NCBI RefSeq assembly: GCF_018129005.1
Contig: NZ_JAAEDL010000028.1
Span: forward strand, 1-64,000
DNA length: 64,000 bases
Direction of reading: 5' to 3'
Source of the DNA: Neoroseomonas eburnea
GTDB lineage: Bacteria; Pseudomonadota; Alphaproteobacteria; Acetobacterales; Acetobacteraceae
The position numbers were made by a program, and so were the translations under genes. Positions 6,207 to 51,948 of the stretch are shown piece by piece; within the stretch, counting starts at the first letter, position 1, and the number at the start of each line of letters is the position of its first letter. The notes below the pieces were generated by a model. The model did not search any database, had not been told where the DNA came from, and saw only the letters and a list, made by a program, of their open reading frames with translations.

Positions 6207-6413
6207 CCCCGGGCGGGCGATGGGCCGCCCTGGCCCCTTGCCAGCCGCCGCCGCGCGTGGCTTTCTCGCCGTGCATCAAGAGTTGGGCCGGCGCCCAACG
6301 CCAACCTGCCTTCCCGGGCAAGGTGGCGCCTCCGCAAGGGGGGATGCGGCCACTCCGGCAACCAAACGGGATGCGCCGCCGTGTCGGTTCGACTCCGGAC
6401 AAGGAGGACCCCG

Positions 6414-26333: not shown

Positions 26334-26437
26334 AGCAGATCCCGATCAGGTGGAATCACCTGATCGGGTAAAGATGCTCGCGAAAACAAGAGGCCGGAGC
26401 GGTTGCCGTGAGCCAAGGCGAACGGAAACCGCTCTAG
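26330..26437 (+). repeat. Dispersed bipartite repeat, full copy B
   Basis: A 108-base element bounded by CTAG at both ends. The first half is a perfect 12-bp hairpin, CCCGATCAGGTG/CACCTGATCGGG with loop GAAT (26341-26368). The second half is an imperfect hairpin, AGCGGTT.CCGT/ACGG.AACCGCT (about 26398-26436). A short AT-richer linker (GAAAACAAGAGG) joins them. The first CTAG supplies the stop of flgL. Inverted or direct copies occur at 20426, 45543, 51739 and 51841. Confidence 0.85.
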
Positions 26438-44827: not shown

Positions 44828-44892
44828 GTGCGTTCCCTGCCGTTTGCGTGCGCAGCCTAGCGGCGCCGCGGCGGTGCGGAAGGGGGCGGGGC

Positions 44893-44927
44893 GGGGAGGC
44901 CGGGCGGCGCCCCGCCGGGCCTCCCCG
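44893..44927 (-). terminator. GC-rich hairpin upstream of the sulfatase gene
   Basis: A 10-bp stem (CGGGGAGGCC/GGCCTCCCCG) with further pairing inside, about 65 bases upstream of the sulfatase start. No T-run follows. It may be part of the terminator or leader of the small transcript upstream. Confidence 0.5.
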
Positions 44928-44943
44928 CGGCGCCGGAACGCAG

Positions 44944-44973
44944 AAGGCCCCGGAGGTTGCCCTCCGGGGCCTT
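44944..44973 (-). terminator. Perfect 13-bp hairpin (terminator-like)
   Basis: The arms AAGGCCCCGGAGG and CCTCCGGGGCCTT pair without a mismatch around a four-base loop. On the minus strand it follows the leader ORF by about 110 bases and comes before the sulfatase gene. The T content after it is low. It resembles the hairpin that ends the binding-protein gene at 45678-45703. Confidence 0.6.
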
Positions 44974-45033
44974 CCCATCGCGTGGCCGGTGTGCGGCCCG
45001 CGAAACCCTGGTGACCCGCGAGCTCGGCCTGCG

Positions 45034-45082
45034 CCATCCGGGTATGACCCTCGGGCCCTGCGGCCCGATGGTCACCGGATGG
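45034..45082 (-). promoter_or_regulatory. Long leader hairpin after the leader ORF
   Basis: Outer arms CCATCCGG (45034-45041) and CCGGATGG (45075-45082) plus inner arms CGGGCC/GGCCCG with loop CTGC. The base of the stem meets the stop codon of the leader ORF. A GGTGACC at 45010-45016 could instead pair with GGTCACC at 45070-45076, which would break the hairpin, so two mutually exclusive structures are possible. Confidence 0.5.
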
Positions 45083-45142
45083 TCAGGCGCCCGCGGTGAT
45101 CCGGGCCACGGGCGCGACAGCCCGATTGATGCGATGAGACAC
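45083..45142 (-). CDS. Putative 19-codon leader peptide
   Basis: GTG start, product VSHRINRAVAPVARITAGA then TGA. The ribosome-binding site is exceptional: the minus strand reads GAAAGGAGGTGATCC, complementary over 15 bases to the standard 3' end of 16S rRNA, with AAGGAGG seven bases before the GTG. Nothing else in the window has such a match. The peptide is Ala, Val and Arg-rich with no run of one amino acid that would point to a classical amino-acid attenuator. It is followed by a long hairpin and a terminator-like hairpin. It could be a regulatory leader or a stand-alone small protein. Confidence 0.5.
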   Translation of the reverse strand: MSHRINRAVAPVARITAGA

Positions 45143-45542
45143 CGGATCACCTCCTTTCGGTTGTTGACGACGAAGCCATGCTGCGCCGCGGCGAGGCCGC
45201 TGCGCAACCACTTCGATGCGAGTCGCCGCCGCCGGGGCGGATTCGTGTCTGACCGGATTGAACGGTGATGGGTCGATGGGGCCACGGACGGCACGGCAGC
45301 CCTCGCCGACCCGACCTGCCGGCGCATCCCGGGCATCCGCGCGGGAGGGCGAGAAGCCGGCCGGCGCCATCGTCGCCCGCTTCGCCGTCAATGCCCCGGC
45401 TATCTCAAGGGGCTGAATCAGGCCGGGCTGGCGCGCATGCGCATCGACGGGCAGCGGAGGCTCCACGGCCTCGGCCCCGGCGGCCTTCGGCCCGGACGGA
45501 TCGCGCCGGTCGGCGCGATCGATGCGCGGCTGGAGCAGCTTC

Positions 45543-45638
45543 GGTTCGCCCCGGCTCACGGCAGCCGCTCCAGCCCCTTGTTTTTGCGAGCATCTTCACC
45601 CGATCCGGTGATCCCGCCTGACCGGGATCTGCTCCAGG
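45543..45638 (-). repeat. Dispersed bipartite repeat, copy C
   Basis: Inverted relative to copy B. It is recognisable by GGCTCACGGCAGCCGCTCC, the linker TTGTTTTTGCGAGCATC and CGGGATCTGCTCC, but more diverged: the first hairpin has lost perfect pairing and the CTAG ends are CCAG and absent. Confidence 0.75.
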
Positions 45639-51844: not shown

Positions 51845-51948
51845 AGCGGTTTCCGTTCGCCTTGGCTCACGGCAACCGCTCCGGCCTCTTGTTATCGCGA
51901 GCATCTTTGCCCGATCAGGTGATTCCACCTGATCGGGATCTGCTCTAG
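51841..51948 (-). repeat. Dispersed bipartite repeat, copy E
   Basis: Close to the inverse of copy B (108 bases, CTAG at both ends) with the first hairpin intact, CCCGATCAGGTG/CACCTGATCGGG. On the minus strand its terminal CTAG supplies the TAG stop of the flavoprotein gene at 51945. Copies D and E fill the gap between that gene and the small lipoprotein gene downstream. Confidence 0.85.

Follow-up and report, generated by a model that had tools for sequence, protein, structure and literature searches.

Organization of the locus

The window, by which is meant the whole 64,000-nucleotide stretch of DNA analysed, contains a very small gene on its minus strand, with a sulfatase gene downstream and a gene for a branched-chain amino-acid binding protein upstream. 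The predicted 19-codon open reading frame (ORF) at 45083-45142 was confirmed, with a GTG start codon and a TGA stop codon, as was the proposed 15-base complementarity of its Shine-Dalgarno sequence (SD) to the 3′ tail of 16S rRNA. Against the 16S 3′ end (...GGCTGGATCACCTCCTTTCAAGG, read from 16S copies of the family), the SD forms 15 Watson-Crick pairs, and with one G.U the duplex comprises 17 pairs at -30.3 kcal/mol; the spacing from the GG core to the start is 7. The 15-mer GAAAGGAGGTGATCC occurs once in the 5.86-Mb assembly. The features of the locus, with the evidence for each, are as follows:

44944..45184, minus: putative stand-alone unit, from promoter-like element to terminator (RF01867 alignment and limits of genus conservation)
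45178..45207, minus: promoter-like element, TTGCGC (45207-45202), an 18-nt spacer and CAGCAT (45183-45178) (genus alignment)
45144..45158, minus: extended SD GAAAGGAGGTGATCC, complement of the 16S rRNA 3′ tail (16S comparison)
45142..45151, minus: 5′ strand of predicted helix S1, GGTGATCCGG, the SD plus the first start-codon base (covariation)
45083..45142, minus: 19-codon ORF, GTG start, TGA stop, peptide VSHRINRAVAPVARITAGA (sequence and homolog comparison)
45131..45136, minus: 5′ strand of predicted helix S2, CATCGC, codons 3-4 (covariation)
45095..45104, minus: 3′ strand of S1, the candidate cis anti-SD CCGGATCACC, codons 13-16, mimicking the 16S tail (covariation and minimum-energy fold)
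45034..45082, minus: long hairpin after the stop codon, which 5 of the 15 genus members carry as an insertion within the stop-codon hairpin
45010..45017, minus: GGGTCACC, a second SD-complementary stretch of 7-8 bp with one G.U (genus alignment)
44979..45002, minus: conserved 3′UTR hairpin CGCGGGCCG...CGGCCACGCG (genus alignment)
44976..44981, minus: 3′ strand of S2, GCGATG, just preceding the terminator; the local hairpin 44979-45002 can also take up its first bases (covariation)
44944..44973, minus: terminator-like hairpin of 13 perfect bp with loop GCAA and tail CTGCGTT, the last conserved feature of the unit

The limits of the unit were read from an alignment of 15 genus members, in which similarity starts at TTGC...GCAGCAT, spans the ORF and the 3′UTR, and ends abruptly past the terminator (GGCCTTCTGCGTT). 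Beyond the terminator the DNA is unrelated among the members, except where the same sulfatase comes next. Upstream of the unit the sequence has mostly diverged, yet TTG is kept in 15/15 and GCAGCAT in most of them. The transcript probably starts near 45171 (minus), and the conserved limits fit a short transcript. A scan for sigma-70 promoter and U-run terminator consensus sequences gave no match at this locus and is uninformative at 73% GC; the terminator stem has no U-run (CTTCTGCGTT) and was therefore missed. The 351-nt region folds 8.6 standard deviations below dinucleotide shuffles (z -8.6). The homologs read in the family have the layout CAACAA, SD, ORF, 30-60 nt and a CRATGnGAAGG terminator. 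As part of the overall explanation that we consider fairly probable, the unit would be a free-standing gene for a small mRNA of about 220 nt here and about 170 nt in relatives.

Two candidate roles had been put forward for this region, a leader of the sulfatase gene and a stand-alone micro-gene with its own terminator, and the conservation limits favour the second, since conservation stops at the terminator and different genes come next even within the genus. Among 954 neighbouring ORFs at 234 homologous loci, no ortholog cluster covered more than 14 loci, and the sulfatase and the branched-chain amino-acid binding protein are therefore taken to be incidental neighbours.

The perfect 13-bp stem and the long hairpin after the stop codon are both real, but the latter is a lineage-specific insertion of 49 nt. 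In the other ten genus members, a shorter stop-codon hairpin covaries (C-G/U-A 5:5, with three pair types at one position). A switch between this hairpin and an alternative pairing of GGTGACC with GGTCACC had also been proposed. Both motifs are present (45076-45070 and 45016-45010), and GGTCACC is invariant in the genus and a possible second partner of the SD, but the switch itself is not conserved because its GGTGACC partner sits in the insertion. The further hairpin predicted just before the sulfatase gene is not conserved in the genus alignment.

Elsewhere in the window, a dispersed intergenic repeat resembling GATGCTCGCnnnnACAAGGGGC was observed at 45573-45594 (minus), 51884-51905 (minus) and 26373-26394 (plus); the assembly has 44 copies at up to 2 mismatches (reversed control, 0), and one copy lies upstream of the micro-gene. 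A SAM-I/IV riboswitch aptamer is located at 6268-6375 (plus) (Rfam RF01725, 56.7 bits).

Conservation of the micro-ORF and its distribution

The 25-mer GAAAGGAGGTGATCCGGTGTCTCAT, which runs from the SD to codon 3, is present without mismatch in 15 of 35 genus genomes, and the remaining 20 have no match even at two mismatches. The bait GAAAGGAGGTGATCC matched in 147 of 299 family genomes, a count that includes 16S copies. When these were set aside, the sequence 3′ of the bait at the loci read was always, or nearly so, [AGT]GTGTC.CAT[TC]G, and these bases lay outside the bait. The sequence AAAGGAGGTGATCNNDTGTC was found in 71 of 385 genomes of an evenly drawn sample of the class, and in a phylum-wide sample 36/36 matches fell within the window's own class. 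The named matches belong to Rhizobiales, Rhodobacterales, Sphingomonadales, Caulobacterales and Rhodospirillales-type genera. Some matches of the genome scan (L073, L115) proved to be normal, longer genes that follow a strong SD, and were left out by ORF length. A remnant of rRNA was rejected as the source of the homologs, because their similarity to 16S ends at GGATCC; genuine 16S copies (GATCCAGCCGCAGG) could be told apart by their sequence.

Practically every homolog retains an open frame of 14-36 codons that has both a start and a stop and keeps the same spacing. The length and sequence of the peptide vary greatly among orders while the SD, the start region and the helices persist, and neither VSHRINRAVAPVARITAGA nor the homolog peptides contain a run of one amino acid, as had been noted for the window's peptide. 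Codons 2-4 (TCT CAT YGn) are conserved at the nucleotide level, and the VSHC/R peptide start is widely common. The serine codon TCT is used for 0 of 150 serines across nine neighbouring genes, yet is frozen in the micro-ORF.

Several further observations were made on the distribution. Among the 35 genus genomes the pattern is all-or-nothing, with nearly all carriers at 4.8 Mb or more and most genomes smaller than about 4.2 Mb lacking the unit, so that loss of the micro-gene seems to accompany genome reduction. Two copies occur in some genomes (G046:C1:805113 and C1:2922049; G976:C2 and C9), either with the SD variants GATCGA and GATCCG or as one strong and one weak match. A TTG-started version (LSS...SGLSWASDR) is found in metagenome-assembled genomes labelled Gemmatimonadetes (L069:7833 and, on the reverse complement, L104:7812), the former scoring 35.6 bits against RF01867; these copies represent either transfer beyond the Alphaproteobacteria or mislabelled or mixed bins. 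In two genomes (L147 and L185) the extended SD precedes a longer ORF of 56-59 aa (MSHGA..LFG..ALLTAG, signal-peptide-like), possibly a different gene with a captured start region.

Relation to the CC2171 and rre RNAs

A cmscan search aligned positions 44945-45166 (minus) to the whole Rfam model RF01867 (CC2171, "Caulobacter sRNA"; model positions 1-159 of 159) with 58.2 bits, at E 3e-11 in a 1-kb stretch and 4e-11 genome-wide, and this was the sole match in the genome. The curated gathering cut-off of RF01867 is 75 bits, and for this reason the Rfam search of the window at the gathering threshold did not find the micro-gene, while a permissive E-value search did. Relatives with the same layout exceed the cut-off (L048, 87.2 bits; L127, 81.0 bits; Falsiroseomonas, 75.5 bits). 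The hairpin at 44944-44973 corresponds to the terminator hairpin that closes the RF01867 RNA.

The model also matches a Bradyrhizobium ORF of 14 aa, VSCLKRCHLAGIAR (43.6 bits), and Rhodobacterales ORFs of 18 aa, such as VSRKRLERGVGTTGGIAC (32.5 bits), which share the SD-GTG-TC start. The rreB and rreR small mRNAs of Bradyrhizobiaceae and Rhodobacterales are reportedly equipped with an extended SD for the 16S tail; their ORFs are said to start with GTG, to encode 14 or 18 aa on a short transcript of their own, and to be bound by 30S subunits and weakly translated. The Bradyrhizobium and Rhodobacterales ORFs found here fit these features and are presumably rreB and rreR. The rre-type hallmark of about 16 nt of 16S complementarity directly before a small ORF is present in the window's SD. 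Because the RF01867 match runs end to end and the rreB/rreR-like ORFs match the same model, the micro-gene appears to belong, as a divergent member, to an alphaproteobacterial RNA family that is already known. From the model matches, we conclude that the Caulobacter CC2171 'sRNA' and the rre small mRNAs form a single family.

No mention of CC2171 together with Caulobacter and sRNA was found among the papers searched, and the main-text passages searched in Bradyrhizobium papers on small ORFs and transcription start sites do not describe the micro-gene. A passage of PMC7298713 cites Hahn et al. 2017 (RNA Biol 14:1353) on rreB/rreR. Within the literature covered, the covarying in-frame anti-SD, the pseudoknot that follows from it and the identification of CC2171 with rre appear to be new.

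Predicted pairing of the SD with an in-frame anti-SD

Helix S1 (GGTGATCCGG:CCGGATCACC) has a predicted stability of -18.6 kcal/mol and is included in the minimum-energy fold; it is absent from the RF01867 model. Its two sides co-vary across the class (GATCCAG/CTGGATC, GATCCGG/CCGGATC and GATCCTG/CAGGATC), with further co-varying pairs in GATCCGATG with CGTCGGATC and GATCTCGTG with GCGAGGGTC. The complement of the SD-tail 5-mer lies inside the same ORF in 83 of 159 representatives, compared to 45.5 (sd 4.1) when partners were shuffled. Outside the window's family the count is 37/94 compared to 18.2 (sd 3.2), and without the commonest SD type it is 13/58 compared to 7.6 (p 0.008). Against codon-shuffled ORFs, the SD:ORF duplex has a mean z of -1.34, with p<=0.05 in 48 of 159 where 8 are expected. 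Some Rhodobacterales and Sphingomonadales ORFs have weak SD complements.

Within the family alignment, pair 14-57 is A-T in 55 and G-C in 12 sequences, and the codon concerned follows the SD: CGG (Arg) occurs in 21/21 G-type SDs and TGG (Trp) in 61/70 A-type SDs, counts in which related sequences are not independent and in which only about four A-to-G switches could be counted. Three A-type SDs with CGG and three T-type SDs with TGG are exceptions, so that S1 in its exact form is not universal. The exchange of Trp for Arg is a radical change in the peptide in which the base pair is kept, which argues for selection on the RNA and not on the peptide. Overall, the comparative support for the predicted helix S1 is good across the class.

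A second helix that crosses the first

Helix S2 (-7.3 kcal/mol) would join codons 3-4 (CATYGY) to the bases just before the terminator. It is already part of the Rfam consensus structure, in which the consensus helix corresponds to CATCGC:GCGATG of the window. In the family, where the 3′ region was aligned separately and without pairing information, pair 24-248 is T-A in 60, C-G in 13 and G-C in 1, so that 75/76 sequences are paired compared to 62.8 after shuffling, and pair 26-246 is T-A in 33 and C-G in 23. Outside the family, the complement of the sequence's own 6-mer was found in 33 of 93 non-redundant homologs compared to 8.6 (sd 2.5) after shuffling, and the variants include CATTGTC:GACAATG, CAATGTC:GACATTG, CATGGT:ACCATG and CATCGT:ACGATG. 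A double compensation within one genus was seen in L223 (G286), which has CATGG/CCATG where sister genomes have CATTG/CAATG. Pairing in S2 explains the frozen His codon of the micro-ORF and its neighbours. In the window's genus, the 3′ strand of S2 overlaps and competes with the local 3′UTR hairpin.

The 5′ strand of S2 is situated between the two strands of S1 and would pair with a sequence 3′ of both, and the two helices therefore cross, as a pseudoknot or as two mutually exclusive states. With loops of about 25 and 40-100 nt, S1 and S2 could form simultaneously (H-type pseudoknot) or alternate. The comparison with relatives that had been proposed for conserved codons and covarying pairs showed conservation of codons 2-4 and covariation in S1 and S2, but no conservation of the long hairpin or the switch. 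The original idea of competing structures that switch ribosome binding was broadly correct, although S1 and S2, and not the pairings first proposed, are the conserved ones.

Proposed mechanism and alternative explanations

The explanation that we consider fairly probable, judged from sequence comparison, is that the unit encodes a self-sequestering small mRNA of the CC2171/rre family, in which the cis anti-SD and the 16S tail compete for the extended SD. S1 and S2, as a pseudoknot or in alternation, would close the ribosome-binding site and hide the SD and the start region. A free 30S subunit would displace S1 with its 16S tail, which is possible because the SD:16S duplex is about 12 kcal/mol stronger (-30.3 compared to -18.6 kcal/mol). 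A ribosome elongating through codons 13-16 would unzip S1 and expose the SD again. Ribosome binding at the micro-gene RNA, and not a downstream gene, would then determine loading, low translation and RNA stability, and the translation and probably the decay of the RNA would report ribosome binding. The peptide is probably incidental or secondary. The step from pairing to control of the ribosome is drawn from the reported work on rreB. A wider and more doubtful proposal is that CC2171 and rreB/rreR form one class-wide family in which coding bases serve the structure, the pseudoknot is opened only when a free 30S subunit invades it with its 16S tail, and the RNA senses or buffers free or mature 30S subunits.

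An unlikely but not far-fetched alternative is a trans-acting or ribosome-binding sRNA, which would capture 30S subunits with its SD as a decoy or sensor, its ORF not being productively translated. It agrees with the Rfam classification of CC2171 as an sRNA and with peptides that diverge among orders around a constant SD, start region and set of helices, but against it stands the open frame that nearly all homologs keep at the same spacing. In addition, two C. crescentus RNAs formerly called ncRNAs are translated (PMC4117421, where it is not stated which two).

That the micropeptide is the functional product, with the extended SD merely securing its translation, is improbable. The frame is indeed retained and the VSHC/R start is widely common, but the common residues are fixed at the nucleotide level, as for the TCT serine codon (0/150 nearby), and are accounted for by S2, and Trp changes to Arg exactly where the SD base changes.

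A very improbable reading, the one first suggested, is that the ORF controls the sulfatase gene downstream as an attenuator or translational leader. The order of ORF, hairpins, terminator and gene fits, and the sulfatase starts at the same place in three other genus members; against this, unrelated sequence follows the terminator directly in other members, the downstream gene thus differing even within the genus, neighbour families cover at most 14/234 loci, and the peptide has no amino-acid run. A chance ORF with a fortuitous SD, for which only the small size speaks, is refuted by conservation, namely the identical 25-mer in 15 genus genomes and the class-wide homologs, and its probability is negligible.

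The proposed self-sequestering mRNA unites two descriptions of one RNA, the Caulobacter 'non-coding' RNA and the Bradyrhizobium/Rhodobacter small mRNAs, and offers a concrete reason why the SD, the surroundings of the start codon and parts of the ORF are held constant even as the peptide diverges. With two covarying, crossing helices over an exceptionally long natural SD, ribosome sensing by an mRNA becomes directly testable by mutation. Genes of 14-30 codons are easily overlooked in routine annotation.

Comparison with known RNA systems

The unit resembles a trpL-type attenuator in its order of short ORF, hairpins and terminator, but it lacks a conserved downstream gene and an amino-acid run, and it has an extended SD and a predicted long-range pairing to the start. 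In the SAM-II riboswitch the SD is occluded within a pseudoknot (PMC9373788), and an SD-hiding pseudoknot is predicted here as well; the micro-gene differs in that it has no known ligand aptamer, its pairing strand lies inside the ORF, and no downstream gene is regulated. With RF01867 the unit shares the SD and start region, the terminator and S2 (CAUUGUC:GACAAUG in Rfam, CATCGC:GCGATG here), whereas it scores 58 bits compared to the required 75 and carries the 49-nt hairpin insertion, and the Rfam model lacks S1 and is labelled a non-coding sRNA. The rreB/rreR RNAs encode another peptide and reportedly come from Bradyrhizobiaceae and Rhodobacterales, while the window's family is probably Acetobacteraceae. 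As reported, they share with the micro-gene the extended SD for the 16S tail and the GTG start, and the rre-like loci match RF01867.
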